43,952 bases of DNA, taken from positions 51,191 to 95,142 of the forward strand of contig NW_003142308.1 of assembly GCF_000003605.2 (NCBI RefSeq), given 5' to 3'. Made by a program: the position numbers and the translations under genes. The notes beneath the pieces are model-generated. The model was not told where the DNA came from and did not search any database. It saw only the letters and a list, made by a program, of their open reading frames with translations. Source of the stretch: Saccoglossus kowalevskii. Lineage: Eukaryota > Hemichordata > Enteropneusta > Harrimaniidae. Positions 14,401 to 38,460 of the stretch are shown here, in pieces. The first letter of the stretch is position 1; the number at the start of each line of letters is the position of its first letter.

Positions 14401-14719
14401 AACTTACGATGGTAGAACATAATCGGAAAATGATGGTCGCGATACTCTGTAGATGTACATTGGTGAATTTTACACATGGCAGTTAGGGGGCCCTGACAAC
14501 TGCTATTCGACACAGCGCTGTTTAACCGTGCGTCTCTCTTTTGTTCACAGAATTATCAGTATAATCATCTGTATCAATGTATATCAAGTGCACTGTGTAT
14601 CCAAAAGGCAAAAATACAGTCTCTTGACTTCACGGACGTCACAGCTTATTCATATTTACCGATATCCTATCATAGCAGTTTTATTCACTGAAGCGTTACC
14701 CCGGAACTATTGTCTTGAG
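14401..14719 (+). other. Predicted 5' exon of gene A (probably 5' UTR)
   Basis: This segment is homologous to 38460-38130 on the minus strand. Shared strings in order are AACTTACGATGG, GCGATACTCTGTA-like, ATTTTACA, TGGCAGTTAGGG, TGTTTAACCGTGCGTCT, TTTGTTCACAGAAT and CACTGAAGCGTTA, then the 5' splice site GAG/GTAAG (donor G at 14720). The strand and distance match gene A, whose coding exon starts at an acceptor at 20043. Indels between the copies are not multiples of three (about 1, 10 and 5 nt), and the frames diverge, so I read it as untranslated. One caution: in this copy a frame from ATG 14453 stays open to the donor and would join in phase 0 to the frame of the gene A start, so an N-terminal extension cannot be ruled out. 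The true transcription start is unknown. Confidence 0.6.
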
Positions 14720-17700
14720 GTAAGCACTTAAATACCAATATACATATATAGTAGTTATATATCAATATACATGTCGATTACACTGCATGCGTTATATGTC
14801 TTATACGGCTAACGTCGGTGATTTTGATTTGATCAACGCATATTTACTGTAATAGGGAATTCTTGATATATTTTGAGTAACTCTTATACTGTAGTCTTCT
14901 TCTCCTACAATTTCTACATGTTCCAATATCGAAAACAACAATTTTGACTGAATCAAACATGCCTCGGAGGCAGAGCTGTCCAGAGACGTTGTCGAATGCG
15001 ATGTGTACGACTAAAATACCGTATTAATAACATATATTAAACCGATATTTACATCGAAGCGGCGAGTTGATAGTCCTCCCAGGTATATCGAGTGACCACT
15101 ACATGTGCGATGAACTGAACCAACCTCATTTAATGTAGTATACAGTACTCGGTGGACACGAAACATAAAGCCGCTATTTGTATATGGTATTGTTTTTGAG
15201 ATGGTACCCACCACATTGCATGTATCTCAATAAAATATTTATTGTTACACGTTATGAGGTGTCGTGAACGAAAAAAAAGGAGTAATATTAAATGTTGATG
15301 ATTATACATCCGTGTAAGGTGATAAATGAACTATAAAATCTTGATAGTAATAAGCCGATCAACGCAGGGGTTGATGTATCGTACTTGCAATCTGATGCTT
15401 CTGAATTTACAGGGCTCAAAGGGAGTTGTATCCCTGGACGAGAACGTGTTTTGCACACACTCAAATGAGAACGTTGCCATGCTTTTCCGACTTACGGCTG
15501 CAACTAGTTTTGAGATTTCATTTTGTGTTTCACTTTGATTGATAATGCATAGATTCATGCATGTCAAGTTTTTATTCGAAATGTAGTAAAACATAATTAT
15601 TTGTATGGACTTCACCACGTAGAATGCGGTTTGCACTTTGAATTGTTGTACATTAAAAAATACATATCAAATACAGAACTAGTGTACATTGTTTACTTTT
15701 ATCCATGCATGATTGTGTGATTGCGTACGAGGTCTATACCTCTCTCTAATACTCGGGCAAGGTAGATATTGTAAGTTTAACCACATCCACGTATTTGCGA
15801 TCTATGTAAGCCATAATGAGCTATTATCCATGTATATACTAATTTGAACGCACCTAACCAACTACAGATTGACACTCATAAATCGTTTATATTCTTCGTA
15901 TACCGAAGTTTTTTGTATTTCAAGTGTGTATTTTCAAATCCATTTTAATTTTGATAACAATGTATTTTGTGACGAGAAACAAATTATATTCATCATGATA
16001 TTATAGCTGGCGGTCAAATACTCGACAATCTGAAGAATACTTTACAGCAATTCGGATCATCAATATAAACATATATAAACTAGCAGCTACATCATAATTG
16101 AATACTTATTATGTATAAAGTAAGAAATCAAAGTGTTCATGCGACTGAGGCACTTCTTAGGATTGTGTGCAATATAGTCGCCGAACTGACTCATCGTTCT
16201 ATTGAATGCTACCATATAGAATATAGCCTGAGACGGTCGATCATAAAATCGAAATTCAAATAATGTTGTAAATGTAAAATTGGTCATTGATTTTCACAAC
16301 AATTTTTTGCATTAAATACATTATCCGGGATTAAGCGCTGAACACGTATTTCACAGGAACACTACGATGTCAATTGTACATGTCGTAAAGCAATTAATGT
16401 GAAACTATACACATGTTAAATAGCTGAGTAACGTATTCCTCCTACTGAATAGAAACATAATAGGCGATTTTTTCATCAATAACATACAATTTATACTAGA
16501 GAATACGTCTTACGTCAAAAAGAAAATTCAATATGAAGAAATCAAATAGGTCACTGTAAAAGTAACGTTGCAAGACTATTATTATCCAGTGGAATCAATG
16601 TAATAAGCACTGAGCATTGATCGAGTTGAAAGACAACACATTAGTAGTAATTGGCGAGACGGAGAATATCGATAAAGTCAAGAAATAACCTGTCATCTAA
16701 TGAACAGAAACAACCACCCACGCAATTCACTTCCCACGAGTAATTGTCAAAACGTTTCGTTTTGTTTGTCACCGGGGTCACAGTGAATACTGTTTGCGCC
16801 TCAGATCAGTTTGAATTAACTTGAAGTGCATTTATCGCACAGTGTGATAAGATTGCAATATAATACACTAATATAAGGAGCATTTGTTCACTCTATTTAA
16901 CAGTTTACACATATACTTGATAACATCTATACTTTACATTTGCCAACCAGATGTACGTCTGCACTTCTAAGTGCATGTCACATGTCAAGTTCCGTTATTA
17001 GTTCTCGTTCACGATTTCCTGATTGATTGGGCCAAGGATGGTCTAATTATGGCAATTTGGGTTGTAAACATACACTAAAGTATGGTATTCTGACAGTCCC
17101 AAAACTTTGCCAGACATATATATCGTATATGTCATGCGCAATGCATTTCACACTTTATGCATATATTGTACATATCATTTTCACATATCCGATTGTGTTG
17201 TGTTTTTTAAATTGATACACTTACAATAATGTTGTCATCTGATATTGATTGTTTTGCATATTATATATAACAATCATTACTGATCACTTTTCTTTATAAC
17301 AAAGAATTATATTTTATATTGCTTAACATTGAACACAACAAGGCCCGTGCGTTGCAAAATGCTTGTTCATTATGGTTCAAGTAGTTTGTCTGCATATTGT
17401 GGTGTTTTAGTGTCATCACTCGAATCTATAACACATCACTGAGAAAAGAAAAAAATCGTGAGTCAAACAGAATAACATAAGACAATGTGTTGAAAACAAT
17501 GTGTTCCTGTACATTCAGCATATGATAGTATACATTAGACGTGAATGGCCACCGAAACCTCGTGGAAATCGACAAAACTTGTAGTTACCACTGTCATATT
17601 GTTTCATTCTTTTCCGTTATCGCGTTCAATATTTGAAAGAAGCATGGCCTGACGTGAATCTCTCGCTGAAAACGAAGTCTCTTCGATAAAACAAGCATTA

Positions 17701-20043
17701 TCCTTCGGATGAAATTAAATAGTATTCTATTTCATTTATACACAAGGAAATATTAATTGTCTTTCAGATTTCCTAATAGTACGTCATTTAATAGAAATTA
17801 CAGATTACAGTAGACACATTGAGAGTATACTATAATGTTACTTGCAGTTATTATACATACGTTACTATTTCAAAAAACTTCGTATACAGAAGCGTTGCAA
17901 ATGTACATTGGAGAGGCTGTTTAAACACAATGTTAATTCACGAGTGGGAAGGGTTTTAATTTGTTTATTGGTTATTTGGGTTTCATTCTGCTGAATATTA
18001 TGTGAATTAGCTGCAAGTCTTCGTTACATTTGTGTAGTCGTCTGATATTACAAACTAACGGTCTAAAATTGCAAAACTTTTATTCTTTCTTAAAAGCATG
18101 CAGTGATATGAACATAACTAATAATAGTGGCACTGTAACAATGCTATATGACAGTTAGTGTTATTCACATAAATTTCATACTTATGTTGCAGTGGTCTTA
18201 CAAACCTTTCATGCCGATTTGAAAAGACAATGAATTGTCCTATTTAAATGAGCGATTACGTATAAACGATGCCCACCTAAAGAAAAAATCCAATATACGG
18301 GTAGTTAGTGCATCCTCCGGTAACGTTAACAGGAATTAATAATCAATATTGGGGCATAGGTCTGATGTATCCGTCAGGTGCTTGGCGCCGAGTACTTTTA
18401 CTAGACTGAAGCTGAATTTGCTTCATGTTAACGTATGTGGCTGTGTGCGTTAATCACGTTTTACTGTACTCTGGCATAATGATAACACATCGCCCGAAGT
18501 TATTACTGTTGGAAAATTGGATAATTTACCTTAAAATATCAAATAGCGTTGATATATGTCGACACGAAGGAGATTGGTGCATATTTTTTACGCATGTAAA
18601 GCGCTGAGTGTCACAATACGTGATAATCAAATATTATAACTAAACTACCGGTGATCTGTATTATTGTACACTGATGAACGCATATATTCTTCTTCTATTA
18701 AAGCAGTATGGAACAAAATGTTTTTTGTACATAAATGGTTTTTATCTTCCATTATATGTTTGTTATCGTTCTCTAAGTTAATTACCACTGATATTTTCCT
18801 TAATGTACTCTCACTGTATGTATGTATCTTTCGTAAAACGTTTTACATTTAGCACCATTCATATTCTTTAAGAAACTGGCAACAAATGGATTGGTAACCT
18901 GAATATTTAGTAAATCGCGAACATTATTCCGCTGTGTGGTACAACAACAAATATTAAGCATAAATTGCTAATATGCGGATAGTTGCCCCAGAGCATAATT
19001 ATAAACATAAGTTAACTAATTTAACTGAGATTTGTCTAAAATCCAGTTTTTAAAATAATTCAAGACAACAATTATTGTTATCGTTACAGAATCTTGCCCA
19101 GAGAGTCATCGTTTACACTCGTTCACTGTATACATTCACTCTAATAATGAATTTTCATTTCATTTTTTTAACTTTGTTAGCTGTTTTGCGTCATGGGTTA
19201 TTTGGATTCTTAATTGCAGCTCTTCAAATTTTACTATAGTTTGGGTGTTTTGCGGTGTGTTCGTACGCCCAGTATTTCTGAAGTTTGAGTCATTGTAATG
19301 CCAGTTTACACGTGACCGTCAAGACAAACGATCAATTCCCACTTGTTTAATGCCAGATCTATTTAAATTTGCAAGTTCCGGATGTACATGCTTAAAAAAA
19401 TCTTCACACACAAATATCACTAATATTCTTCAACAACGCCATTTTTACTAGTTGCCATGCGATGAGCTACGAGAACGTGGGGTCAGTCCAACAATCGGGT
19501 ATGTTGTATTTACAGTTGGTACGTACAGTTACTGCCCACTTTCATGTAGGGCTCCTGTTACATGTGAGAAACTGGGACAAAAAACGTTTGTCGTATGTGA
19601 AAAGGGTCGTTAATACAATGTTCATAACTCTTTCCTCGAAATATAATATGATGCCTCTAAATTCATTCAACCTATTAACCTTACAGAGTATAGCACGTTT
19701 TGAGACCACGGTGGGTCTCTCACGGTGGAAAGTTTCCATAAATTATCAATTTGTGGCTAAGATATTGTTAGCTATTCTACTATTTAGGTAGTCATCTATA
19801 TATCTGTCACATCGGTTATGCATTTGCATTAGCTGAAGTATAAAGTAGTGACACGTCCTCTCGTGTCAATAGCAAGACCTATAAACCAGTATATGTGCCA
19901 GATGATCAGAATGATTTCAAAAAGTATAGATACAATGTTGAAGGACAATGTTGGAACGATATGCATCCAATAAACAAAGTGTCCACATGTGTGTTTAAGT
20001 GTGATTCGTCGTATCTTAACAAATATTATCCTCATTATTACAG
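14720..20043 (+). other. Predicted intron of gene A (5.3 kb)
   Basis: Begins GTAAGC after GAG at 14719 and ends CTCATTATTACAG at 20043. Homology with the gene B intron continues for a few dozen bases at the 5' end (ACCAATA blocks) and weakly before the acceptor (GATTCGT). Inside I recognise no gene. A small perfect hairpin GAGACC-acggtg-GGTCTC lies near 19701-19719. Confidence 0.5.
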
Positions 20044-20052
20044 ATCAATACT

Positions 20053-20538
20053 ATGGATAAATCAGAGGACACATTGGTCGGACAATCCTACTCGTTGACC
20101 ATGGAGGTGAACAAAAGTGAAGATGACGATAAGTGGAATTTAACGGAGGATGACACAGACACTCGAGAAAGACGGCGGCGGAGGCGCAGAAGGCGGAGAC
20201 GAAAGGGCCGCAAGGGATATCTGACAAAACTGACTTCATTTGAACTAAAGATTATGTACGGTCTGATGTGTATAATTTTAGCCGGCTCGTCGTTGCTACC
20301 AGCTTTTATATTCCTTGGTGTGGGCTCAGCAACATCACCAGTCCATGTTGGTGGTATTAATGTATTTATTGTTGTTGGAGGTGTGTTCCTGTCAATAGGA
20401 TTTCTTAGTGGATGGACAGGTGCTTTTCTTTGTTGGCGTGCTCGCATGGATACCCGAAGTCCCGGAGGATGCATATGTGATAAACAGAGTATGATATGTC
20501 AGTGTAGAGCATCGTATGAGCCAATTGTGAAAGTGTAA
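20053..20538 (+). CDS. Gene A: small two-pass membrane protein, polyarginine and Cys-x-Cys tail
   Basis: 161 residues, family not recognised. Residues 1-36 are acidic. Residues 38-54 form a basic cluster with a long run of Arg, encoded by mixed CGN and AGR codons, so it is not a simple repeat expansion. Residues about 66-91 and 101-128 are hydrophobic, giving two predicted membrane segments separated by a short loop (residues 92-100). The tail (129-161) carries C140-x-C142 and C149-x-C151 and ends EPIVKV. The ATG at 20053 is chosen because a splice acceptor (ATTATTACAG) lies 9 nt upstream and paralogue B starts at the matching place. The stop is conserved too. Against gene B the last 103 residues align without gaps with about 85 identities, and most codon differences are silent, as expected under protein-level selection. 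The basic cluster before the first membrane segment would favour both termini being cytoplasmic (inference). The layout and the LCW-R motif after the second segment recall vertebrate TMEM100-type small proteins, but this is only a resemblance. Confidence 0.88.
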   Translation: MDKSEDTLVGQSYSLTMEVNKSEDDDKWNLTEDDTDTRERRRRRRRRRRRKGRKGYLTKLTSFELKIMYGLMCIILAGSSLLPAFIFLGVGSATSPVHVGGINVFIVVGGVFLSIGFLSGWTGAFLCWRARMDTRSPGGCICDKQSMICQCRASYEPIVKV

Positions 20539-20922
20539 GTTAGCATCGCAAAAACCGTAGCAAATAGTTTAACCCGGAGATGTGTGCCTGTCGCCAATAT
20601 ACCACATTATACCGACGTATGTCGATTGATCTCTCGCGATTTGAGGTTACTTTGCGAGTCTTGCTGGGATATTATACGCCGTTTTATGAATACAAAGAGT
20701 ATATATCACGATTGAGAATAACTTCTTACCTCCACTGACATCAAGGCGAGGCTAAAGCTTTCTGTTATTAACACACATGTTCTCAGACAAGCAAGTGCGT
20801 ACAGATCTATTCATGTGTATTCATGTTACCTCACCCGCGTCTGTTGTAGTCTTTACGAAAACAGATTAAAATTCAAGAATAATAATACCATAACAATATA
20901 ATCCACAGTCATGTGACACAGT

Positions 20923-20928
20923 AATAAA
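20923..20928 (+). other. Candidate poly(A) signal of gene A
   Basis: AATAAA 385 bases after the gene A stop, followed by a GT-containing stretch (CTGTTGATGTC). Its position suits a short 3' UTR. In such A+T-rich DNA, chance occurrences are common. Confidence 0.4.
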
Positions 20929-22943
20929 AACTGTTGATGTCAGCGAAACTCCGATATCTGACATTCCGGGGATGTCATTGCAATTTCTGTGCTTACTATC
21001 TTGCTTTTCCAAGGGTACACAATTGTATGTTTTTTGGTATTCATTGGAACATGATTAGCAATGTTCATACACAGGCGGACTCAGCCGTTCACATTGAATA
21101 TGACCCGATTAAAAGACACACTCTGGATGCTGATTAGAACATGCTTGGGAAATATTTATATTTGGTTTTGTAGGTTTTGTAGAATTGCAGCTTCCGATCT
21201 GTCTCTAGCTGTATACCAAGCGCTTCATGGAAATGGATGCAGAGGTACATTTTTGGCTTTAACATTATCACTATTGACATATTATAGGAGACTTCACTTT
21301 CACTGATATGGCCACAATAGTTTTGTAGTCATGAACTGATTAAAACTGAGAAGCCTTACTGGAGATTACATCCTTGCTAAAATAAATGTACATTTTGGAC
21401 ACTCATCGTTAGCGTGATTTAAGATGAATGTGCCCACGATAAGCGGACGGGAAACAGACTATGGATTTGCATTCTTTGCCCTGAGATAATGCGTTTGGAA
21501 TCAAATCTGTCGTAAATATTTGTAGCAAATACGTCACTATTCAATTGAAAAAAAATAATATTATCATTAGTATCATGATGACAATTTATTTCTTGTGTAA
21601 AGTATGCATGTTACGGTCATGTTGGCACGTGTCATGAATCAGTTGTGGGTATTGGCACGTACAATACCCATTCAGTATTTGATGTACGTATTATTTCCCG
21701 TAGTGTTCTAGATTACTATTGTTTCTCTCGGGGTTCGTCGCATGTTAGACATTGCAATCGGTTTCGATCACATTCTCATTTATCCACTCAGAACTTCAAA
21801 AAGTTCTCGAGCGTAATCTCTGCCAATGATGTGCTCCCGAACAAAAGTTCGGAGTCTGGCTTGACTTTTATTTTGTTTACAATTTTTCCTGGCTTGGTTA
21901 TCAAATCATGTTTTGTGTTTTGGCGGATATTAGATCCATGTTAGATATAATATCAGTAAGATTGAATTGTTAGGTTGAATTCTGTGTACCTATAATTCGC
22001 CAAATAGGGTATGTGGATACAAATCAGAGTACACTGATATTCGAATACGTGTAATTTCATTTAGGCATTACACTTGACAAGCATATATTCATCGACGTAA
22101 AGTATATTCAATCAAGTGAAAGGACTGGAACATTTTATCAACAGCAGTGCAATGTCTTGTTGCCATTGCTCTCCCTTTGTTACTTATAACCCTGATCCTA
22201 AGCAAAGGGTCGCTCCTCAATCGACAATCAATACAGCATGTGCTAACACATGGTATTTCCCCGTTCTACAATCCAATTCACCAGATAATAGTGAAAAAAT
22301 TATTTATTTTTCGGCGGTTCTGTCAATAACATTATCGACTGCGTTGAAGGAGCTGTATCCAATGTAGTAACTAGAAAAGGCTGTGTCAAAATAAACTGGA
22401 AATAACAGATCGTTGTCCCCAAGTCGTTTAGGGAAATGAACAAGTTCACAATACAAATGACTGAAAAAAATAGTAAAATCAATAAGACACATAAAGGGAT
22501 GTCTGGTATTTCTGATAACCTGTGTAACAGCTGGCGTAACAATATTATTATTCTAAACATGTACTACAAAAATGAGATATTTTTGTTAAAAGTTGAAATC
22601 AGATGTTAGTAAATTTAATATCATTTCCTTAACTTCAATTTTAGCTGAATATATCATTGGAATAAACCACTAATTTTAGGATTGTTGATGGAAAGTTTAA
22701 TTTTGTTTTTATTCATATTTTCTATCGAAAAACGAGGCATGGAAATAATTCTTTCAGTTAGGTATACGATTCACATCCTTAAAATCGAACGGATATTAAA
22801 TAAAAACTCTTTTAGCCATTAAGTCATACTCAATATTCAAGATTAGAAACGATTATCAATCTCTTCTAGCCAACATACTGGCAAGTCCCGTTCATGTTAT
22901 CCACGAAATGCGGTTGTTGTCCAACATTTTATACAGTTCATTA
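20929..22943. other. Intergenic stretch between genes A and B, left part
   Basis: No gene recognised. In 22147-22378 (+) several frames are open in parts; one begins with a signal-peptide-like hydrophobic stretch but starts with GTG and would need a one-base shift in an A run to continue, so I do not annotate it as a gene. Confidence 0.5.
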
Positions 22944-23365
22944 GGCCAGACTTTTATTATCCCTTGTTTCGCGAACCCGCCGAATGAACAGGAGCCGAAA
23001 ATGAAATAAAAATAAAAAAAAAATCAGCGTAATTTCTCGCGGCCGCCGACTTGTAAGTGCAAAAACTTGCTAAAAAAACTTATTTTTATCTTCATTTTTT
23101 TCCGACCGCCGCATAACAAACAAGTTGCATTTTCGTGGGAGTATCATGATCAAATTACCGAAGTCTCGCGTAGAGGAGAAACAAGGTTATACATGAAATA
23201 AAATTGGATTTCATTTCTTCTCTCCGATCAATGATCTCACTTACAATTCTTTGAGAATCACACAAATCTGATGGAAAAAAAGAATTAATTTTATTTTTTT
23301 CCCGCCCTCCTAATAAAAATTGCCTTGTAAAAACTCGAGAAACAAGGAATAAAAAAAGTCTGGCC
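22944..23365. mobile_element. PIF/Harbinger-like MITE, 422 bp
   Basis: Terminal inverted repeats of about 30 bp are clear. The left end begins GGCCAGACTTTTATTATCCC and continues CTTGTTTCGCGA; the right end, read on the minus strand, begins GGCCAGACTTTTTTTATTCC and continues TTGTTTCTCGA. The element is flanked on both sides by TTA (22941-22943 and 23366-23368). A 3-bp TWA target duplication and termini starting with GG are hallmarks of the PIF/Harbinger superfamily. There is no transposase frame, so it is non-autonomous. The interior has GC-rich patches (GCGGCCGCCGAC, CGACCGCCGC) among A and T runs. It sits between the 3' ends of genes A and B. Confidence 0.85.
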
Positions 23366-23368
23366 TTA

Positions 23369-24907
23369 CTTCAGCAGTATTGAGCGAAATATAGATTGTA
23401 TATATACAAATATTGTCACACACGACAAACGTACAAGAGTAAACATGTTTCGTGACAAGCTGTTTCAGGGCATTTGTACATATTAAGGATTACCTTGCAT
23501 ATGACAATATTAAACAAATCGTTCACCATTTATTCGGAGGATCCGGAAAATATAATTTATGTTTGCTTATACGCACTCATACATGATACAGTAAATTCTT
23601 GTGTTGACTATAATAAGTGCCGACAAAGCGAAATGAACATGTTGCTGTTAAAGAAACATCGCTGAGTTGTTGAATGTAATACATATCGGAGTAATCATTC
23701 ACGATGGGTTTACCAACCATATTAGCCACTAAGATGGTGGTTGACTCAGTATAATATCACATGAATCACGGTCATAAACACTTTGCAAATGTATGTTATT
23801 CAAACTTATGACAATTACATATTGATAATTTGAATTTGAATTTGTCTTGTAGTAGCTCAGCTGGTTTTATATATGTTTATTACAATGGTGCATTTAAAAG
23901 ACAAATACCAAATAGTGTAAAGTTATATGCATGTGTTTAAACCTTAAACTTTAAATTCATGAAAGAATATGCATATTAATATATGCGTATATGTATATAG
24001 TTATATAGAAATCCCTGTGTTATCACGCAAAATACTTTGCAGTTCAACAGAGCATTCTCAAAATATATTTCTTCAGTGCCACCCGTTTTTAACATTGACC
24101 TACTCATATGCTTATTATTAATGTTACTAACAACATGTGTGAAACGTGAGGTAAAACAAATACATGTGTACTTGCAGTATTCAAATTACATTCACATGTT
24201 AAAAAGATGATAATAAATATGAAATAATTTACGCTATTGATATCGATATATAAATGTTTGTTGAAATAGTCCATACACTCGGATACCAGACTTTTTCAGC
24301 ATAAATCCAAGGTATACTTAGAAACTCTTAATGTTAGGCATGACACTTGAACTACAATCGCTTTTGTAATCAGATTGTTGAATTGATACGTTCATAGAAC
24401 TTGTCTAATGTGATCGTGCCCCTCGTATCGGTCTTATTTCTAGCCAAGGTAGTTATAAATTTGGTATACTTATTGGTCCGTATATGAGCGAATATCTCTG
24501 CCTCAGATCCCGGCCTAAGATCCATATTGACATCAACCCGGAACTTAAACAAGGTAATCAACATTCAAACGGAGATTTAACACGGAATAGAAGATGGCGC
24601 ACATTCCTCAGTGAAACCTAGCATTAATAGATTTTGCAATTATCCAGGTATAAAAATGGTCACACATTTGAGCCCTCAGGGGTACCTTCCTACCCAGCTA
24701 TGTATTAAGACCACCTGGACGTTCACTAGTTTGTGTTCTCAGTGGAAGCAAGCCGTAGTATGTATATATCAGACATTACCTTTTAGCGACGTTGATGGAT
24801 ATTTTCTTCTACGCAATACAGGGAATAAGTCGTTACGAAATAGTATTTTGTGATTGAATTACACAATGTGCAATAAAAACAATGTGTAAAGCTTGTATGT
24901 TATTAAT
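23369..24907. other. Intergenic stretch between genes A and B, right part
   Basis: No certain gene; one small minus-strand frame at 24564-24370 is listed separately. I found no AATAAA on the minus strand close to the gene B stop. Confidence 0.5.
24370..24564 (-). CDS. Possible small ORF, 64 codons, unrecognised
   Basis: Reads from ATG 24564 to the stop at 24370. The composition is that of a soluble protein, with regular charged and hydrophobic residues (motifs PGSEAEIFAHI, TRGTITLDKFYERI), unlike most chance frames in this A+T-rich window. It lies about 340 bases downstream of gene B on the same strand, so it could be a short separate gene, an exon, or sequence in the gene B 3' UTR. No membrane segment, signal peptide or known motif is seen. 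Confidence 0.3.
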   Translation of the reverse strand: MLITLFKFRVDVNMDLRPGSEAEIFAHIRTNKYTKFITTLARNKTDTRGTITLDKFYERINSTI

Positions 24908-25399
24908 TTACACTTTAGCAATGGGCTCGTACGATGCTCTACACTGACATATTGCACTGTGTTTATCACAAACGCATCCACCGGGTTTCTTGGTTTCCGA
25001 GCGCGCACGCCAACAAAGAAAAGCACCTGTCCATCCACTAAGAAATCCTATAGCCAGGAACACCCCGCCAACAACAATAAATACATTGATGCCGCCAAAA
25101 GGGATTGGCGACATTGCCGAGCCAACGCCGAGGAATATAAAAGCTGGTAAAAATGACGAGCCTGCTAAAATTAGACACATCACACCGTACATGAACTTGA
25201 GTTCAAATGGCGTCAATTTTGTTAAATATTCCTTGTGTCCTTTTCGACGCCTTCGTCTGCGTCTTCTCCGTCGTCTTTCTGTTTCTTCAGTTTCGGCGTC
25301 GTCCTCTGTTAAGGTTAACATGTCAGCATCTTCATTATTGTTCGCCTCCATGGCGATCGAGTAAGAATGTTTGACCAATGTATCCTCTGGCTCATCCAT
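24908..25399 (-). CDS. Gene B: paralogue of gene A, small two-pass membrane protein
   Basis: 163 residues with the same architecture as gene A: acidic N-terminus (1-41), arginine run (42-52) within a basic patch to about 57, two predicted membrane segments (about 68-93 and 103-130), and a tail with C142-x-C144 and C151-x-C153 ending EPIAKV. The start is the ATG at 25399-25397. A longer frame upstream (to 25456) has no ATG and crosses the splice acceptor TTCATTGCAG (AG at 25410-25409), which lies 9 nt before the ATG exactly as in gene A. The loop between the membrane segments and the tail segment between R-A-R and P-G-G differ most from A; the second membrane segment is nearly identical. Transcription converges with gene A. 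Function unknown; the conserved cysteine pairs suggest metal binding, disulphides or lipidation (inference). Confidence 0.88.
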   Translation of the reverse strand: MDEPEDTLVKHSYSIAMEANNNEDADMLTLTEDDAETEETERRRRRRRRRRRKGHKEYLTKLTPFELKFMYGVMCLILAGSSFLPAFIFLGVGSAMSPIPFGGINVFIVVGGVFLAIGFLSGWTGAFLCWRARSETKKPGGCVCDKHSAICQCRASYEPIAKV

Positions 25400-25839
25400 G
25401 AAATATATCTGCAATGAATATGAATACGAATCATTTGTACCATTATAAAACCACACGTGTGAACACTGTACACAATATGGTCACTATAATAATCGCGTCT
25501 TTATTCAGTGTTAATGAATTCATCTATTTTTTATTATTATATTACATTATATTATAGCATTATCAATGCCAGTGGATTTAATGACGTCATTGCAGCAGAT
25601 TATTCGCGATAATGTATTACATTATTGAGCATCAAGGCCCTGTCCCATGGATATGAATACAATGTTGATTTCGAAAACTAATAAAGCAGAAACTATAATT
25701 GAAAAAAAAGAAATATTGTTAGATAACAAATATTTAATACCAAAATCGGCATCAAATAAAACGGTCCATAACCAATAACAGCGGATTTCAATATCAAAAT
25801 CAGACAATATTTTGAAGGCATCGTCTTCTGCTCTGTACG

Positions 25840-26390: not shown

Positions 26391-26697
26391 GCAATGTAAA
26401 TGAGTTCAATACAATAATATTTGATGGATTAAAACTAGCTTCTTTCTTAGTCTGCCATATAAGATTGTGGAAACAATTTCCAGAAAGATATTTTAAATTA
26501 TTCAGATTCACGGTCCAGTGACTTTGAAACTATTCCGTTCACTGTGGATTTTTCTCCAAATTGTTTCGCTTTTTAGAGGCAGCAAATCCACTGGTAATGA
26601 CCACGCTACAAAATAGGACAAATACGCCATGACCACATTGTGATGCAATTTTGATGTAATAGCAGTGACGACAATAAATGGTTAAAACTTACTTAAA

Positions 26698-26837
26698 CAA
26701 TAATGAACTCCCCGACAACCCATAATAGACTCAATCACACTTTGTGCTCCATATATGTACTCGGCTCACGCCTCGTACATATATGTCTCGCATAATGAGC
26801 TTTTGCCCATTATGGGTTGGCGGGTCGTTCATTATTG
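26698..26837. repeat. 140-bp imperfect palindrome
   Basis: Two arms of 63 bp face each other around a 14-base loop (TCGGCTCACGCCTC). The outer 30 bases match at 26 positions (CAATAATGAAC..CCCG.CAACCCATAAT), and the inner 11 match perfectly (CATATATGTAC / GTACATATATG). Outer and inner pairs share one centre at 26767.5, so it is one structure. The right arm also contains its own small inverted pair CATAATG / CATTATG. The form fits a hairpin-type MITE or a structured regulatory element; no target duplication was identified. Confidence 0.8.
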
Positions 26838-27498
26838 TTTTAAACATTTATCTAATTGTTCTATTGCTAAGGTACAGTCCATCTTTAGAAAATACTGTAC
26901 TACAGTTAATTACATTTTTATTTTGAACACTGTAAATATGGATGTCTCTGTCAAAGAACAAAACCCATTTGGTTCGATTTCGAAACAAACATTCTATAGG
27001 ATAAACCACGAGGCGATGTTCTATAAACTTATCATACCTAATATGTATGGGAAAGTGTTGACAGTTATAAAATCAATCTATAAAAATGTAAAGTTATTCA
27101 AGACACCTGCTAGTACAGCAGGGCTCCACATAGGCCTCTTTTTGTTCTTTAATTATATACTGTGATGAAATTGTTTTTGCGTATCTGTTGACTGACTTAA
27201 TTAGCTGATTACGAGTGAATGGCTGTGTTATGTCTGTCATCGTTTAGTCGAAGTTCTGGAACTAATTACGAGATAACCGACGCTATTCGGACTACTATTT
27301 CTGACAGTTACTAATATAGTGAACAATTAATCAAAAGATATGACGTGTTCAGTACTTAGTGTGATTGGCTTTATGATTGAAGGTTACGCCCTAGAGTCTT
27401 TTTACTGCTTTGTAATTGGTCAAGGTTTTGAAAATGAATAAAGTTGTTTTAGTTGGTCTTGGCGAGTACACCACGATAGACACAGTCCAGTCCTGGAG

Positions 27499-27570
27499 AG
27501 TCTTGGGGCGAGTCTTGACGCAGTCTAGAGGCAGTCTTGGGTCAACCTTGCGATAGTCTTGGGGACTTTT
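27499..27570. repeat. Short AGTCTTGG minisatellite
   Basis: AGTCTTGGGGCG, AGTCTTGACGC, AGTCTAGAGGC, AGTCTTGGGTC and AGTCTTGGGG follow one another at 11-12 base spacing, with one gap of about 21. It lies in a GC-rich patch (about 27410-27770) that contrasts with its flanks. Confidence 0.65.
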
Positions 27571-27777
27571 CCCCAGGGCGCTGTGTCCTATAGAGTGCTC
27601 GACTGACCGACTCAGACGAGAGTTAAAACGTGTTTCGTTGTGTGTGTCTTATTAGACTGTAAAGTTTAAGTGACTTTCCCGATCCCGCACCTCAAGGGGA
27701 CGCAATAGAGAGTCGAGACGATATTCCCCCCCTGACACGTGTGGAGAACCCAGAGAGGAGAATTTCCCCCTGATAAT

Positions 27778-28770
27778 ACACTGTAAATTTCGGAAGCACT
27801 TTCATGTTTTCCATTAAAACACACCGTTTTAATTGATAACACACTGTTGTAATAAAAAAACATGTGTATTATATAATAAAACACTTGTGTATTTTCTATC
27901 GAAACAGTAGTGTTTTAGTATTTTTAGAAAAGTGTTTTAGGGAGTTATTAAATTAAGCACATTGTAAACACACAAAAATACACTTTTCCGAAATAAAACA
28001 CTAGGTGTCTTACGGTGACATAAATGTGTAATTAAAGTGTTTATTGACAGAACATTTAAGGATTAATGCATCCATCTTTATGCAAAATTGAGTGAAAAGT
28101 TTGAGGACTCGTTAGTAAACATCATGGTATATATGCCAACTAGACAATCACCGAAAGTGACGTAATGATGCGATGGGTCATTACCACCAGAAAAATAATT
28201 TTATGTCACACACCAACCTATATGGTCTTACCAACCTAAGTACAACTAGAAATCGGGACACGTGGTGATTAAGTACGTCGTGGCCTAACGGATTTTAATA
28301 ATCAGCATTTGGTGAACGGTAGTTGTAGTTCCAATGACATCTGATCATTCTCACATGTTTTTTTGTTCTCGAAAAATGCTCAATTTGAACCACTTCAGAA
28401 AGCAAAATCACCAACTATGTTTCAACCCAAAACGCCAAACTATGCATGTTTTATAAGTGTTTATGTATACGACATGTACACAATTTCATCAGTGTAAGTA
28501 AAACACTTTTTTTACAAATTGTTTTGTCTTGAAACACTTTCTAAAACAAACACACATGTAATGTTTCAAGGTAAAACACTCGACTATGCATGTTATACAA
28601 GTGTTTACATACGACATGTACAAACGGTCATAAGAGTACCTAAAGCACTTTTCTTTGAAACTGTTTTATTTTGAGGCACTTCAGAAAACAAATATGCAAT
28701 GATTAAACCTAAAACACCCGATTATATACAGGAGACTTTTGTATGCCGTCTACGATATGCATCTATAATA
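27778..28770. repeat. AAAACACT / AGTGTTTT-rich repeats, left arm
   Basis: The 8-mer AAAACACT or its complement recurs many times (for example 27878, 27909, 27931, 27994, 28583). It includes an imperfect tandem repeat of about 143 bp: copies start at 28387, 28531 and 28673 with CACTTCAGAAA-like strings, then ACTATGCATGTT, AAGTGTTTA, ACGACATGTACA and ACTTTT. The third copy is partial. The segment begins with ACACTGTAAAT, which reappears inverted at 30984-30994. Confidence 0.65.
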
Positions 28771-29200: not shown

Positions 29201-29869
29201 GAGATGCCTTTCGTAAACGACGGTGGACATTAATGTATGTTGCGTGTTCAAGTAACTGGTAACTCGTGTCGTGCGCATACTCATTCATGATTGAATTATA
29301 CTATCGGGAGTGTGTAGACAGGTGGCATATTCGTTGAAGAAGCAATAACAACTTGAACCGAATGAAGTCTTTTTTGATTTTCTTGGGAAAGAAGGAAACC
29401 GGAAGTTATCCTAAACAAACCTGAAGGTATGATGATATTGTTACTTCGTTACGAAGTTAAGCGTGTGGAAAGTGTAATTGATAAAGCCAGCGTCGGCAGT
29501 TGTGTACTACATTTATATTTGCAGCGGCCTCCACTCATGTGCGGGATAACTGATTAAACTCAAGTTCATGAATTTACAGACTAGAGAACTCCAAACCACG
29601 TTACGTCCTTGCCAACATTCCCCAGATCAAGATCTGAGTTACCAAATAAATCATAGAAATGTTGCAGAATTTAGCAGGAAATTTCAGTTCAATTCGTTTG
29701 TGGTCACATTTTCGTCTTCTCATTACATGCGCGTTAGTTTATAACAATAATATTTTCATTGTATATCGCATTATTTGAAACAATAATGATAATTATTTGA
29801 ACATTACTCACTGCATTTTGATAATATTATACTTTTCAGATTTTAAGAGAAGCGATCGGAGCGAACAAG

Positions 29870-29977
29870 ATGAAACTGCTAATGTTGGGAATTAATTTTG
29901 TCCTGTTAATATGGGTTACTACTGAAAGGGTTCAAAGATGTTATTGTTCGTTTCAGTTAATTACTCATCTGTTTTGA
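29870..29977 (+). CDS. Possible first coding exon of a small secreted peptide
   Basis: The frame encodes 35 residues beginning MKLLMLGINFVLLIWVTTER, a good signal-peptide profile, followed by VQRCYC and a stop. A strong splice acceptor (TTATACTTTTCAG, AG at 29838-29839) lies 30 bases before the ATG, and a purine-rich leader follows it. About 410 bases upstream, CTGAAG/GTATGA (donor at 29427) could close a 5' UTR exon. The peptide may be complete, or the reading frame may continue by splicing from within this stretch (for example near AAAGG/GTTCAA), which is not a strong donor. No family recognised. On its own, a 35-codon frame could be chance. Confidence 0.3.
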   Translation: MKLLMLGINFVLLIWVTTERVQRCYCSFQLITHLF

Positions 29978-30381
29978 AGTGTCAATTTTCGCAAATATTG
30001 GGTATTGTGTCTACAGTTTCACGAAAGGTTTGAATTTCAGTACAAGTAAACACACTTACTCACGCGATTGATAATATCTTTCACAACAATTATACAAATC
30101 TAGTTTTTCTTAAATGTTACACACGAACTTACTTTATTAATGTTTATATTTATGAATACATTCTTACTTGATTATGTGATTTTTTTATCGTTTGTTATGA
30201 TTACTGTACAATAGTGCAAAGTGCCTCATCCTGAAACGCATCATTTGATATATTTTTTTTTCAAAAATGATAGTGTGAATGATTTTTTACCATGTTATCA
30301 GTGTAAATACATTTTAAAATGTGTCTCTGTTACGAGCACTTTCCGTTCAGTATTGTGTTTTACTGTTTAAAGTGTTGCGAT

Positions 30382-30994
30382 GATAAACACTTGTTCAATA
30401 CATATTTCTGGTGGAAACTCTTTTCAATGTGTGGCTAGTGAAATCACTTTATTAAAACAAGCCTTCGGTTGAGACATTTTTCTACGTGTCGTGATTATAA
30501 ACACTTTACAAAAGGTGTGTCTAGTAAAAGCACTTTTAAAAGTGTTTTGATAATAAGCACGTTTTATACATGTTCCTGGTGGGAACACTTAACAAAAGAC
30601 TAAGTAGTAAAAGCGCTTTTAAATGTGCTGTTATAGTAGGCACTTTATATACATGTTTCTGGTGGAAACGCTTTTAAAAACGTGTTTCTAATGTGTTATG
30701 GGCAAAAACATCCCTGAAATGTTCCACTAAAAGTGTTTTCATAATATACACTTCTCGCAATTATGCAGATTAAACACTTTAAGTGTTTTTAAAGTGGGGA
30801 CAAGCTTATAAACATTTTAAATGTTTTATCACAAAACAGTAAAAATATTTAATTTTAATTTTACAGTAGTGTTGTAAAACAACTCATTTGCGATTTTGAG
30901 AAAAACACTTAATGTGTTTAATTATAAACACTTAAAAATGATTTTAAAATGGGGACAAAAATTTAAAAATTTAAAACACATAGATTTACAGTGT
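30382..30994. repeat. AAGTGTTT / AAACACTT-rich repeats, right arm
   Basis: Degenerate units begin at about 30382, 30492, 30549 and 30632 with ATAANCAC, then ATACATGTTYCTGGTGG and AAAGCGCTTTTAA-like strings; the second unit is shortened. A perfect palindrome AAACACTT-T-AAGTGTTT lies at 30772-30788. Two related blocks containing TGGGGACAA occur near 30796 and 30950. The segment ends in ATTTACAGTGT (30984-30994), the inverse of the left-arm start. CACTT/AAGTG cores are also the preferred binding site of NK2 homeodomain proteins, so a binding-site cluster is possible but unproven. Confidence 0.6.
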
Positions 30995-31605
30995 TGTATG
31001 TTTGGCTAGGTAATTTCCCAGTTTATATTGTATGTTCGTCAAAAATTGTAAATCTATTTTTACATACAACATGTTTGACTATTTGTCGTGTATATATTAG
31101 TGTCTTAGATTCACATTCTGTTTGGTGTGGTTTTAGACCCCAACTAGAAATTAATTACTCGTGAGACTTCATATGCTATTCTAGCTATGATGGGGATCTT
31201 AACGGAATTAATTATTGTGTCTATATCAGCTGTTTTTTTAAGTGCTCGTTTTCATACCGAAAATAATAAACTAAAATGAAAAACTGGACCTGGATACGTT
31301 CAAAGAAATAATGTTTTAATGAAGTTGGAGTTCCAAAAATGTAAGGAATTAAAATGATAACTATGTCGACTGAAATCGTAATATAATAAATATAGATTAA
31401 AATAACAGTGATAGGTTCTCGCCAATTTATATTAAAGTATAGAGAGTACTCTCAGAATAATATTAATCGTTATAATAAAACCCAACCACTATCCATTGGT
31501 GTTTGAGTGTGCAATATCACGTTACCGGTGTTCTTCAAACAATTCACCATGACTCACTGTCACAGGCTCAGAACCAGGCATATCACAAATGTGACACTTC
31601 CAAAG

Positions 31606-31655
31606 NNNNNNNNNNNNNNNNNNNNNNNNNNNNNNNNNNNNNNNNNNNNNNNNNN
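31606..31655. other. Assembly gap of 50 N
   Basis: Exactly 50 undetermined bases, probably a fixed-size placeholder. The true gap length is unknown, so distances across it are uncertain. Confidence 0.99.
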
Positions 31656-34011
31656 CATTATTAGGTGAAATAGGTGACATTGTGATTTACACTATGACTC
31701 TCCATCTAAGTTTGATATACTGAATACTTGTTGGCAATCATAGTGAATATGTAGCAACACAGTAAATCAATACGAACTAATTCTGAAAGGGATTATCCTG
31801 TGGATAAAACAGTGTAGATGAAACTGGGGCTCTATATAATTATAATTCAATAGAAAACAGTGAATACTGCTTATCCCCGGCCTCTAGCCTATGTGAATGA
31901 AAACTGTTAATGACGTAATAATTATGTGACCTAATTAAGATTAATCTCGTTTTTTGCACAAGATATTACTGTGCTGATTGACAATTAACAAATTAAATGT
32001 TAATGGTACACTTATACAAGATATCTCCGTTAAAATATATGAAATGACACACGCAAAATGATGAAATCGCGGTATACTTTTAAACGCTGTTCACTCTGAA
32101 AGCATGCAAATATAGCGTAATCTATTGTATAACCTTAGTCTCTTTCGCAGCATTAATAAGTAAACGATACTCTCTTACTTCTTTCTAAATGTCAAATGTG
32201 CAATCAATGAATAATTAAAATAGGCTTACATAATAGACTTCAGTAACGCATGATATCTTATTCTTGTTAGGTCATTACAATTTTGTGTAAATACCACACT
32301 TTCTTTGTCTTTATACATTTTTCGCGTCCAAGTATCTCGCTGTTAATTATAGAAAAACTGTGAGCACCGTTCGGGCATCTTACAGGAGAAGCAACGACCT
32401 ACACTCTTTTTATTTTTCACATTTATTTTATATGATTGTATTTTTGTAGCCAAGAAGGAGCACTTTTTGAGTATACAAACATTCACCTAGATGATTGGTA
32501 ATCAACACATTAGTTTTGGTGTAGGGTTGATGCTCCGCTAATAATAATACTAGCTACGGAAATAAATTAGTTTATTCATTAAACCACATCAAATAGAGTT
32601 ATGTGTATATCTATGTAATCGAATTACCAACCTGGATATTAGTCATTGCTATGAACACAAATTTGTATTATTGTTCACTTGATAATAAAATATAAATGTT
32701 TCGCATATTACAAGGCTCTGGTGAAACTCAAGCCCTAATCCCTACCAACGCCAATGCGATATACGTAAATTAAAAAATACAGCTTTGAAACACACGTTTC
32801 TTTGAAAACTATGATACGCGTGATTTTATTCAAAACACAAAACACATTGAGGTGCTTCATCAATATGCATTGTATTAACAGAGGAATACGTAGTCAACTA
32901 ACACATGGAAAACATGCCAGAACATTCATCAGCCACTAAAGCACTATAAACTGATACGATATATGAAATTAAATCAACCATTCAATTTGAGAGTGTACCC
33001 CTACAGCTTTCCCGAGGCTGTTAGTGGTTAACAATTTTAAAATTGAGTAAAGTAACGCAGAAGTACAATTATGCCTTATTCAAGGTTAACAAAAAACATT
33101 TACAATCAAATAACACATAACAAGTGAGATATTACAATCAATGGTGAAGTCAATACTGTGGTAGTGACTGAAAGTAACCCCATGGCATATATATTGAAAT
33201 TTTAAGTGTTTTGAATAATAGAGTGAACGAGTCTTGTTCTACTTGTGACAAAAGCCATCTATCTTGGTTCTAATCTGATACACAATATTATTTGCAAAGG
33301 CACAACAGTTGATTTTCCTAATATAATTAAGCAAGTAAGTAAGTAATATAGATTCTTCTGAATACTACATAAACTTTTGAAACTTAATATCTGGCATGCA
33401 ACTGTACATAGGGCACGAGAGTACATTTCCACGAAATAGAAGAAATGGAAGAAACAGTGTCCACTTCCATTCCGTAAAACACACGGTGAGGTCATTTGCC
33501 GTCATTCCTTGATTTGTCTGTATAATAATTTATTCCATGAGTGACAGTGGTGTATGTGAAACATTCACCTCGAATTATAATGCAGATAATAGCCAAGCAG
33601 TTTTTTCATGAAACGTCTTAAAAAACATACTTTTCCATTATGGTACATAATATTCTTAATATTAAACACGAAATATAACAATTTAAATCTAAACAATAAC
33701 AAGTCATATCTCTGAAGTATTTTCATTTTTGTAGTAGTTGTCATTTATAGAACGCTATATCAAACCAGTATCCACTGCAGTATAATTATTTTTGTTAACA
33801 AAACACATTTAGATCAATAAACAGTAAATTAACCAGGCATTGTTCACAAACATAATAAGCATTTTATAGAAGCATGTACATTGTCATACTACATTCTTTG
33901 ATAACATGCAAATTGCACATTAGCATTTAGTGGTTGGTTGCGCCAAATATATTATCAGTATTGTTATGATAAACTTATGCAAAGTACATTCGAAGAATTC
34001 TCATCTAAATA

Positions 34012-34829
34012 AGACCGTGGCCCACATAAGTCTGGGTTCAAAAAAACCATTCTGGATTGGAAAATTTGAAATATTGAAAGCATTTAAAACTTAACATTAA
34101 AATTAAAATATATATATTACAAGTGACAAATATTTAATCATGATATGATATATTTATTTGACTACAGAAATAAATCATTTTTAACTTTTAACTCGATTAA
34201 AATTGGATCATGATAATCCATAATTGTATAACATTCTGAATAGTTAAGACATTGAGCATTGTATGACCTTGTTGCACATAATTTTGCTCCTTTTAGATCT
34301 GATTCAAAATGACCGATTTTTTGTATTATGAAATGCATATTCTGATATTCCTTGATCAATTGCAAACCAAACTGTACACCTACATAGATGATACATTGAC
34401 ATGTATTTCGAGATCTGATTAAACATTGCAGACTCATTTCAGTTTTGTTTAATGTTGGACAACGTGGACTGTCATGTCAAATATTGTTATGAGATCCGTG
34501 CTAGATGCACATTTTACATATACATGCGCACCCTCACATGGATGTACAACATTATACAGATTAATGTGATTTGTATTTGACCTTAACTCTTTCCAGTTAC
34601 ATGTTTCATGTGTTTGTATGAGTCTGCAAGCTATTAATAACACATGCGTCTCGCTGTACACATACACGCTTTTATCTTATATCATGAAACTATAGAAATA
34701 TATCACATTAATTGGGATATTTGCCATGGGGGAAACATGTAATAAAGGTTACTTGTCAATATTTTAGGTTCGAAATGTTGTACTTTGAACCCAAATATTG
34801 GGATTGAGTTCGCAGGTGAGTCGTGGTCT
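34012..34829. mobile_element. Candidate TIR DNA element, about 0.8 kb
   Basis: The left end reads TA-AGACCGTGGCCCAC; the right end, read on the minus strand, reads TA-AGACCACGACTCAC. A second shared inverted block TGGGTTCAAA lies inside each end (34032 and about 34785), with extra bases on the right. TA on both sides fits a TA target duplication. Two minus-strand frames inside (34667-34449 and 34437-34162) are unrecognised. It may be a MITE or a small broken element; the terminal repeats are short and imperfect. Confidence 0.4.
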
Positions 34830-35988
34830 TACTTTGATGAAAACAAAAATGTCGGGCTGTTATCGTGAATTTAACTGATATGAAACACTAATTCATCTCT
34901 AGCTGGCGCTGTTTAATCAAGTGAAAATAATCACCGTTCATCACGTATATATTTTGACAGAATCGTGTAATATTTTTTGAATTTATGTGAATTTAAAACA
35001 GCATAATGTTCATATGTCATGCATATCCTATACAGTGTGGTTCAAAAAAAATTATTTCTTGAATTTTTAACATTGACCTACAATCATGTTTTGAAACCAA
35101 AATATCAGTCTTTAGAAATCCCCAATTATCCAACCTTTTATATTATTAGGTCAATTGAACTCTACACATGTATCACATTTTATGCTTTTATCACATTTTG
35201 AACAATTATTGTGATGACGTATCTGCTTGACTAATATAGACGTGTCATCGCTAGCATGAGGTGTTGTATAACACTGATTGCGTAATGTAATGTGTTGCCT
35301 TGATGGGAAAGAAGTGCCATGAATTTAATTATGGCACATTACGAGTATCTTCTTTGAAGACTACTTTTCATGTCAAGAGTGGTGTAGCATTTCAAAGGTA
35401 TGGTAGCAAGAATGTTATTTGCATACATAGATTCATTATATATTACTAACCATGGTGAATACATTATTAATTTGGGACTTCTCTACAACATTGCAAGGAG
35501 ATATGTAAATGTTTGTGGTTCCCATCTATCATAATAATCAACCAAATTTGAATGGTACTGACAGAATACTAATGTCTAAATACAAAATGTCCTGGTAGTA
35601 CAATGGTCAGTGAATGATACTAGGGTGCTTTGCTTCTCATATGTGATTATTTCGAGCTGAGATTTCTAGCGTCCTAATACTACTAAACGTTTGATATTAT
35701 CATAATATGTTCTGCACTAGTGCAGTATCAATAAAATGCAACCCATGAGAATTAGTGATACAAGGATAACTATTTGTAACTATGTAACTATTTGCAATGT
35801 CGTCACACACAACGACACATTATCAACTTATGATAAGCTATATTAAAAAACGAAAACTCGTATCGCATTAATTGTGCGAAATAGAGTCTCTGTTCTTTAA
35901 ATAAAAAGATTATGCCCTAACTTTATTGATATTTCCTGCCCGAGCAATTACTGCTAATAACTTGTCTTTCAACTATACTGATGCGCAG

Positions 35989-36110
35989 CAGCCCTCTAGA
36001 TTGCGACCGTTTTGGTCGGCATGGCGATTAAATTAAATGAATGGCGATTCAAAACAATATATAGGTCGCCATTTGTCGAACTAAGAATAATCTGGCCGGC
36101 GACTAAACTT
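35989..36110. mobile_element. hAT-like transposon end (possible)
   Basis: The sequence begins CAGCCCTCTAGATTGCGACC, then GTTTTGGTCGGCATGGCGAT and later GGTCGCCATTTG. A CAG...TGCGACC terminus followed by GCGACC-TTTT-GGTCG and GGCGA-TAAA strings is a form I associate with hAT-type elements. The inverse of the first 8 bases (GAGGGCTG) occurs at 37000-37007, and CGCAG flanks both (35984-35988 and 37008-37012). hAT elements make 8-bp duplications, so that right end may be false. Identification is from memory of motif style only. Confidence 0.35.
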
Positions 36111-36660
36111 TCCGCAATATAAAACAGCTTGTCAGCTCTTGGTAGCGCAGTTTTACCCACAATTCAACAATGTGCACATGCGTATTACGTTATCCGAGCC
36201 ATGTACCGCATAGTGCAAAAACTCTTAAATTTTGGCCGGTTTTAGGTGATTCATGTTGAAAAGTACAACATGTTTTTAGAGTACAACATTAAGGTGCATT
36301 TTCGAACGGTCGAATTTTTTAGAATAGAAATCAGCAAATGAAAAGAATTGGGATGATAGACAGTGTGCTTTGGTAGTTAAAAAATGGAAGTCCGCCAAAT
36401 TGACGTAAACTTCCCTTGTATCACAGTAAAAGCAAAGGTCGTGGCCGAGTTGTAGGCTAAACAACTTACGATCAAAACATCAGTCATCAATCAATATGTA
36501 TTATGACGCGGAGAAGAGGTCAGCACAAAATCTAATAGGTCAAAGGAGTTGTTAATGTATCAAGTTACCTCTCTCTGTGATTTATTTTTCATGGAAATTA
36601 TTTGCTTGTTTTCAATCAATTTTAGCATTGACATTTGTTTGCTTCATTGAATTAAACGGA

Positions 36661-36793
36661 GTTCGTCCGGTTACGAACAAAGCTGTCTCGCACCACCTAG
36701 GAAAACTTGCGAAGCTCACGTGTTCTTATGTGAGGGACGAGATTCTGCCGTAAATTCGCCCTGGGTCGTTAAACGGCAGTTAAAATAAAATAA
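36661..36793 (+). repeat. Four-hairpin block with A-rich tail, SINE-like
   Basis: Four consecutive inverted pairs are packed into 119 bases. First, GTTCGT-ccggtt-ACGAAC (36661-36678). Second, AGCT-gtc-TCGCA facing TGCGA-AGCT (36681-36716). Third, CTCACGT facing ATGTGAG (36715-36734). Fourth, CTGCCGT facing ACGGCAG (36745-36779). An A-rich tail TTAAAATAAAATAAAAT follows at once. Dense helices followed by an AAAAT-type tail suggest the 3' part of a SINE or another retroposed structured RNA. No clear Pol III A and B boxes were found upstream. It could also be a non-coding RNA gene. Confidence 0.45.
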
Positions 36794-37829
36794 AATGGGA
36801 CTTTCAAGGTGTATTTTGACATCACTATTCGGACATATCATTCATTCTTGACGCCTAAAATTGAGTAAGTTTTACCGTAGAGCTGTTATCACTGTAATCA
36901 ATGTTAAATTATTATTCAAATGCTCAGTTTATTTTTTGTAAACAACTAATTTTTTTATAAAAAAAATATATGCCGTTTTCCCATCAAAAGCCAAACTTGG
37001 AGGGCTGCGCAGTTCTTGTTACATTGACTTCACCCAATAATAATAGTCTGCAACGTAATATTAACAGTGACTTAGATAATTATTATTTTGGTATAGCCGT
37101 CTTCAGATTCACGAGTTTTCTTCACCGTATTCGACTTGACATATGCTTTACTGACAAATGAATAAACTCTCGTCACAAAATACAAGGGCCACCAAAATTA
37201 AAAAGGAACTTATAAATACAAGTTATAGAGTTACCTTGTTTTTAGACAGACATAACTGTTTCATGGAGAGCTTCTGACGAACTTAATTCCTAATTATAGT
37301 GCCACAGACCACTGTTTAAATTGAATTGAATAGTCGTAATCATTCAAACAAAACACTTTGTTGAATTGATACTAAATAGAAATATTAAAATCAACTATAC
37401 ATTAATTATCAAGAATCGCTGATTTATTTTGTATTTTGAAGAGTTCCTTAACGTGCCTCAGGGTATAAGCTATGTTTGAAACATTTAAATTTAGAAACGT
37501 CAGATAGTAATTTCAAAGCATCAGACATCACGATGATTAGTCTATTACTGAACAATATTTGTAGTTGAGTTATTCTTATACAAAAATACAAATCCAATCC
37601 TCTATAAAATAACTATTCACGGCGCTTCTTATCGTGTACCGAGAATAGTTCTGTATTGAGTTACAGTCGATTTGCAGTATAATGTGGTCGATGCAAACTC
37701 ACTCAATTCTCCTCGGAATACAAATAATTGTACACGAAATCGAGGTGACATGCTCACAGAGTATGGTATGCTGATGGATTGAATACAGTCAATTCAGTAA
37801 ATCAGAATTCAGTGATCACATAAACAGAA

Positions 37830-37972
37830 ATACAGGTGTGCCTTGCGCCGAGGAGGATATATTCATATTAACCACTCAGGACGGAACCATCTCAGTGAAA
37901 TACATGTTCAATACACTCAGAAGGTATTGGGTTACGCACACTGCATTTGGCAATGCCTTTTAACAGAAATAC
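37830..37972 (+). other. Possible orphan exon, unrecognised
   Basis: After an acceptor-like AAATACAG, a frame without ATG reads PCAEEDIFILTTQDGTISV and continues to a stop at about 37972. The composition is protein-like, but other frames over the same stretch are also open, nothing links it to other exons, and it lies within the predicted gene B intron on the opposite strand. Weak support. Confidence 0.15.
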
Positions 37973-38129
37973 CTTCGGGGCATGTGTCTTTCAGTTGCCA
38001 ACACTGTCATAGTGCATTGTTCAAACGGAGGACACTGAGTTCACTCGTTCGGCTGAAATAAATATCAAATACTGTGCATCAATATCTATATGTATACATC
38101 AATATACTATAAAGTGTATTGGTACTTAC

Positions 38130-38460
38130 CTCGCAGTAAATGTTATGAGTTAACGCTTCAGTGCTTGAAATAAAACGGTGTTGATGTCGGAAAATATAAA
38201 TGGAGAGTGTCAAATAATGTAACAATGTTTGATTGTCTGAAGTGAAGTCCACGAACATTCACCGCATTCATTCTTTGATACATATTAGACAGCATTCTGT
38301 GAACAAAGGATAGACGCACGGTTAAACATTGATGTGTCGATCACATCATTGGCAAGGCTCCCTAACTGCCAGATGTAAAATCGACCAATATTATATTTAC
38401 AGAATATCGTGAACGTTATTTTCCAATGATTTACCGATACATATTCTGCCATCGTAAGTT
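38130..38460 (-). other. Predicted 5' exon of gene B (probably 5' UTR)
   Basis: Inverse homologue of 14401-14719. It carries the same ordered blocks (AACTTACGATGG, ATATTCTGTA, GATTTTACATCTGGCAGTTA, TGTTTAACCGTGCGTCT, TTTGTTCACAGAAT, CACTGAAGCGTTAAC) and ends in GAG/GTAAGT (intron starts at 38129). It holds a short upstream frame beginning at the ATG in AACTTACGATGG and running 51 codons to a stop; the same ATG in the gene A copy opens a 26-codon frame, so the upstream ATG but not the peptide is shared. On the minus strand a TATA-like CATATATAAAC lies near 38608, a reasonable distance for a promoter. The unspliced frame is broken, supporting a UTR role. Confidence 0.6.

Follow-up and report, generated by a model that had tools for sequence, protein, structure and literature searches.

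Tail-to-tail paralogues in Saccoglossus kowalevskii with collinear noncoding arms, probably from an old inverted duplication

We analysed a window of 43,952 nt from the hemichordate Saccoglossus kowalevskii (C3327:51191-95142, on a contig of 500300 nt) and searched the 572-Mb genome, represented by 4830 contigs. Positions are those of the window, the whole stretch analysed, unless given as contig positions. Two genes, A and B, were located on opposite strands with their 3' ends facing each other, 4.4 kb apart. The coding exon of gene A (20053-20538, +) encodes an intact protein of 161 aa, and that of gene B (24908-25399, -) an intact protein of 163 aa, 78% identical to A. The N terminus of protein A is acidic, and the protein also contains an eleven-arginine run, two hydrophobic stretches (approximately residues 65-93 and 95-124) and a cysteine-rich tail with four cysteines. 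A low-confidence AlphaFold2 model (mean pLDDT 52.7), built from a two-sequence alignment, contained long helices at residues 62-93 and 101-133 and a shorter helix at the arginines. Pfam scans of proteins A and B gave nothing above the curated cut-off; the best hit among six paralogues (E left out) was DUF1218, in one of the six, with an E value of 0.0042, and a profile search of the PDB gave nothing significant (best E 0.34). The product may be a small, two-helix membrane protein.

The coding exons of A and B were 79% identical over 512 alignment columns, with 40 to 51 identical positions among the 57 to 60 compared in each full 20-codon step. Mismatches at codon positions 1, 2 and 3 numbered 25, 17 and 51, and the substitution rates were dS 0.61 and dN 0.13 (dN/dS 0.21). 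A and B are therefore very probably genuine genes under purifying selection.

Ahead of both genes lies a homologous block in inverted orientation. The stretch 14343-14840 (+) aligned with 38517-38013 (-) over 535 columns with 64.3% identity (E 3e-36), in agreement with the original prediction that 14401-14719 recurs inverted at 38460-38130; similarity is strongest in the core 14401-14553/38460-38294 (76% identity, 168 columns). Both segments close with the GAG/GTAAG donor that had been described, GAG/GTAAGC at 14720 in A (rank 2 of 2713 GTs on the + strand) and GAG/GTAAGT at 38129 in B (rank 2 of 2682 GTs on the - strand). Predicted acceptors were likewise present exactly 9 nt ahead of both ATGs, with gaps at 20044-20052 (+) and 25400-25408 (-); they score only middling (58th among 2002 and 88th among 2102 AGs of the respective strand), and the same position is kept in paralogues C and D. 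Judging from these sites and their conservation, splicing would join 14719 to 20044 in A and 38130 to 25408 in B, across introns of 5.3 kb and 12.7 kb that hold conserved pieces, and the whole reading frame would lie in a single exon. Leader, intron position and coding exon all recur on the opposite strand in the same order, as had been proposed.

To place the start of the leader exon, both strands of 205 kb of the contig were scanned for AG..GT pairs spaced 60-300 nt, and the 214165 pairs obtained were ranked with splice weight matrices that use general frequencies rather than training on this genome. In the base setting, the top two exon candidates of the 205 kb were the two homologous leaders. 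The predicted leader exon of A (14551-14719, +, 169 nt) ranked 1, 2, 1 and 1 under four settings, and that of B (38130-38296, -, 167 nt) ranked 2, 3, 4 and 3. Among 20 simulated sequences, the best score was reached in one and the second-best in two, and the scores by themselves therefore do not settle the matter; what counts is that the two pairs occupy homologous positions. Of the 2002 AGs on the + strand, the one before 14551 ranked 1, and its homologue before 38296 ranked 5 of 2102 on the - strand; both copies show a suitably spaced series of a branch-point-like TTTAAC, a pyrimidine tract and CAG.

Identity between A and B changes along the block. It was 52% (55/105) ahead of the block, 76% (81/106, with 14 gap columns) in 14401-14506, 89% (39/44) in 14507-14550, and only 50% (82/164, with a 5-base gap) in 14551-14719. 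By our own arithmetic, a dS of 0.61 implies a silent-site identity of about 58%. The exon body thus seems to have drifted freely, at about the silent-site rate, and the preceding 150 bp (14401-14550, +, aligned with 38297-38460, -, in B) did not.

These data bear on what the block represents. The original prediction treated all of 14401-14719 and 38460-38130 as the first exon, noncoding, with transcription beginning near 14401. Its donor end holds; its start is probably wrong, because the best acceptor of the strand sits inside the block and conservation falls exactly at that AG, 14401 being merely where the stronger similarity begins. An exon comprising the whole segment is therefore unlikely, although homology does span its full length and the donor is strong. 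We infer instead that the leader exon begins at 14551 in A and 38296 in B, either as an internal exon that follows an upstream exon or near the transcript start, and that the constrained stretch 14401-14550 is less likely to be exon than to serve as 3'-splice or promoter region. Sequence just ahead of a 3' splice site is usually not more conserved than the exon, and the greater conservation of these 150 bp than of the adjoining exon favours a promoter there. We put at somewhat under even odds the possibility that 14401-14550 is the core promoter: transcription would start with TTCACA as initiator motif, right at 14551 or slightly upstream of it, the leader would be a genuine first exon of ~170 nt, and the likeness to an acceptor would be incidental. 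A constrained 150 bp beside an unconstrained exon is a promoter pattern, no conserved donor upstream of 14551/38296 was seen by eye in the far elements described below, and a weak 17-nt match in paralogue C keeps the pyrimidine run and lacks the AG. The correct spacing of TTTAAC, pyrimidine tract and CAG in both copies, with AGs of ranks 1 and 5, speaks against such an incidental likeness. If the animal uses spliced-leader trans-splicing, 14401-14550 could instead be a short outron with its promoter, preserved in A and B alike, in which case the leader exon would undergo trans- as well as cis-splicing; this reading, suggested by a strong acceptor at 14551/38296 that lacks a visible conserved upstream donor and follows a constrained 150 bp, is quite improbable.

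Coding use of 14401-14550 was considered and rejected. In A, the frame is interrupted, and two one-base gaps shift it; B's copy stays open for 53 codons, as far as the tested segment reaches. The distribution of mismatches over the three codon positions (9/7/14) gave no clear coding signal.

The leader exon itself is likely untranslated, on sequence grounds. Its 50% identity, compared with 79% in the coding exon, is in keeping with the noncoding nature assigned to it in the original prediction and does not favour coding use, but one observation counts the other way: with the predicted junction in place, A's leader is open throughout in the frame of the ATG, without a methionine. Open frames of 168 nt occurred in 142 of 4000 random frames of the window. 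In the frame of its ATG, B's leader has two stops, followed by an in-frame methionine 46 codons before the ATG.

The similarity of the two arms extends well beyond the block. At an E value of 1e-4, the noncoding arms gave seven collinear matches in the inverted comparison and none in the direct comparison, which is the collinear inverted similarity that had been expected; six weak matches (best E 0.001) appeared in the direct orientation once the threshold was relaxed. Controls at 1e-4 consisted of ten overlapping 15-kb stretches of the contig compared in both orientations with both arms, and 36 of these 40 comparisons were without a match and four had a single match. Because the control stretches overlap, these four are probably two matches each counted twice, and one of the two is the insertion in B described below. 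On A, the members of the chain are 8206-8378, 8519-8588, the block, 15221-15436, 15927-16045, 16540-16616 and 16610-16711.

The first two form the far upstream element of A (8206-8588, +), whose pieces match 39664-39504 and 39270-39201 of the far upstream element of B (39201-39664, -). The latter also aligned with paralogue C (contig 4404-4827; 457 columns, 64%) and paralogue D (contig 186642-186500; 151 columns, 67%). Within the predicted introns, two weak matches of A (+) at 15221-15436 and 15927-16045 correspond to B 37665-37459 (63%) and 37220-37091 (68%), respectively. They are followed by a conserved noncoding element of A (16404-16983, +) that is 74% identical to paralogue D over 592 columns. 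Its counterpart in B (35771-37081, -) is interrupted by an insertion of ~1 kb at about 35991-37005. This insertion has GCCCTC...GAGGGC ends with a CTGCGCA repeat on both sides, and a relative with 83% identity is found at contig 132723-133696. Separately, between A's far element and leader, at ~9600-12200 (-), frames with the look of pieces of a retroelement, including a recombinase-like part, were noted by eye.

The arms measure ~12.4 kb in A and ~14.8 kb in B around the 4.4-kb spacer. The description of a 24-kb duplicated locus is accordingly upheld for the duplication and not for the size, 24 kb being only the distance from leader to leader. Drifting DNA is about 50-60% identical between A and B. 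Further outward, A contig positions 53432-53585 and 54819-55072 matched B 98221-97974; these matches were left out of the chain because they belong to a repeat with two copies in A. Both of these copies fall in the outer flank of A (window 2242-3882), and the outer flank of B holds a single one (contig 97974-98233), in an order that fits arms reaching further out.

Genome-wide searches returned few copies of these pieces. With 14401-14719 as the query, two matches were obtained (2/2 candidates scored), namely itself and 38294-38460, and the intronic stretch 16540-16720 was found at three places: A, D (91%) and B (80% over part). The B leader exon was found at one place, with A's leader missed at 50% identity, and the far element of A found only itself, with B's copy missed at 68%. 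All such counts are lower bounds, very common words being skipped by the search, and since these diverged copies were missed, the searches argue only against additional copies of fairly high similarity. The original prediction had named dispersal of the segment at 14.4 kb in many copies as grounds for its refutation; two places were found, collinear with the other matches.

A and B belong to a small family. Protein A as the query gave 10 rows, nine of them on seven loci; the tenth (C3274, E 0.31) was dropped. The divergent member F recovered the same seven loci in 8 rows. Six loci lie on contig C3327, namely paralogue C at 7674 (+), A at 71243 (+), B at 76101 (-), E at about 167.7 k (+), D at 171.8 k (-) and F at 390.9 k (-), and the seventh, G, on contig C671. 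E is broken in several frames, D has a frame break near its end, F is 38% identical, and the reading frame of G seems to begin at its second methionine. A second tail-to-tail pair is made up of E and D, which lie about 3.7 kb apart. The idea that A/B and E/D arose when one complete pair was duplicated was considered and rejected: the spacers share only 81 columns, between the 3' flank of A and that of D.

The family members were compared for their relationships, leaving the broken E out of the alignment and the dS table and taking D into the dS table only up to near its frame break. The dS values were 0.61 (A-B), 0.75 (A-C), 0.80 (A-D), 0.53 (B-C), 0.51 (B-D) and 0.55 (C-D). The lowest dS of A is thus with B, but B itself stands closer to D and C than to A, and the tree, with weak support, did not group A with B; a single A/B inversion event is therefore not proven. 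Against the dS ordering, the noncoding chain favours A and B as partners. Among the paralogues compared, the leader block was seen in A and B alone. Searches for the leader exon in C, D and E gave only weak matches (E 0.015 or worse), and two exon-like pairs inspected by eye in D's interval were unlike the leader of A or B. Apart from these comparisons, the B intron at 27776-28131 matched the upstream region of D (contig 176767-177136) over 373 columns with 88% identity, closer than the coding exons; this is perhaps a younger repeat.

Homology, order and approximate copy number of the arm parts are direct observations. Seven collinear matches in inverted order, together with a coding dS of 0.61, point to an old inverted duplication rather than a dispersed repeat, and we estimate a probability of about 0.75 that A and B are tail-to-tail paralogues from such a duplication within a small family cluster, each arm keeping the order of leader, intron and coding exon. 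A single inverted event giving A and B would be the simplest reading of the noncoding chain, with conversion or loss among copies also possible. Each arm would then run from a far upstream element through a constrained ~150-bp segment and a leader exon of ~168 nt, probably untranslated, to a long intron and the coding exon; later insertions would have lengthened the arms and broken some of their parts. The conserved noncoding pieces are most likely the promoter or enhancer of each copy. Two other origins were weighed. Repeats do occur in both arms, but a pair of dispersed-element insertions is a very improbable source of the similarity, the block lying at two places in the genome and forming one collinear series with the coding exon and the remaining six noncoding matches. 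It is just as hard to credit that two alleles of one gene were joined tail to tail by the assembly: the short spacer with inverted arms on either side is what such an artefact would give, yet coding exons that are 79% identical, and drifting DNA at about 50-60%, are too diverged for ordinary alleles, and five more paralogous loci exist.

On the inverted-duplication reading, the A/B pair would reflect an ordinary gene-family history, one more case of well-described tail-to-tail duplicates. Of interest is the noncoding layout that appears to have survived it: splice sites, the upstream segment and the intronic element stayed, and the leader body drifted like silent sites. A, B and their five relatives may thus offer a small system for finding out which pieces are regulatory. 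Duplicated conserved noncoding elements near paralogues outlast silent-site decay, mainly as described from whole-genome duplicates. The A/B pieces are likewise kept, but they belong to local duplicates within one contig.

Comparable arrangements have been reported in other animals. The report on guppy LWS opsins describes an inverted tandem pair, tail to tail and about 3.3 kb apart, in a family with further copies, and discusses secondary rearrangement or replication slippage in trans (PMC2527612). A and B resemble that pair in being tail-to-tail duplicates, 4.4 kb apart, with further family copies; they differ in the protein encoded and in the upstream and intronic noncoding pieces traced in both arms. 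In Capitella, the Dlx genes are closely linked inverted tail-to-tail duplicates 18 kb apart, for which the source raises enhancer sharing and attributes an identical stretch to gene conversion (PMC3199776). The likeness here is one of inverted tail-to-tail duplicates in an invertebrate, whereas the Dlx genes are homeobox genes and the coding exons of A and B are without an outstanding identical stretch.

Elsewhere in the window, where 258 reading frames were judged by eye only, a few minor features were noted. An imperfect palindrome with two 71-nt arms, 76% complementary, lies at 26695-26840. It is overlapped by an open reading frame (26755-27165) with a Pfam match to FcoT that falls below the cut-off (E 0.00057) and is probably spurious. 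At the start of the window, positions 2-218 hold a tandem repeat with a unit of 72 bp in about 2.6 copies.
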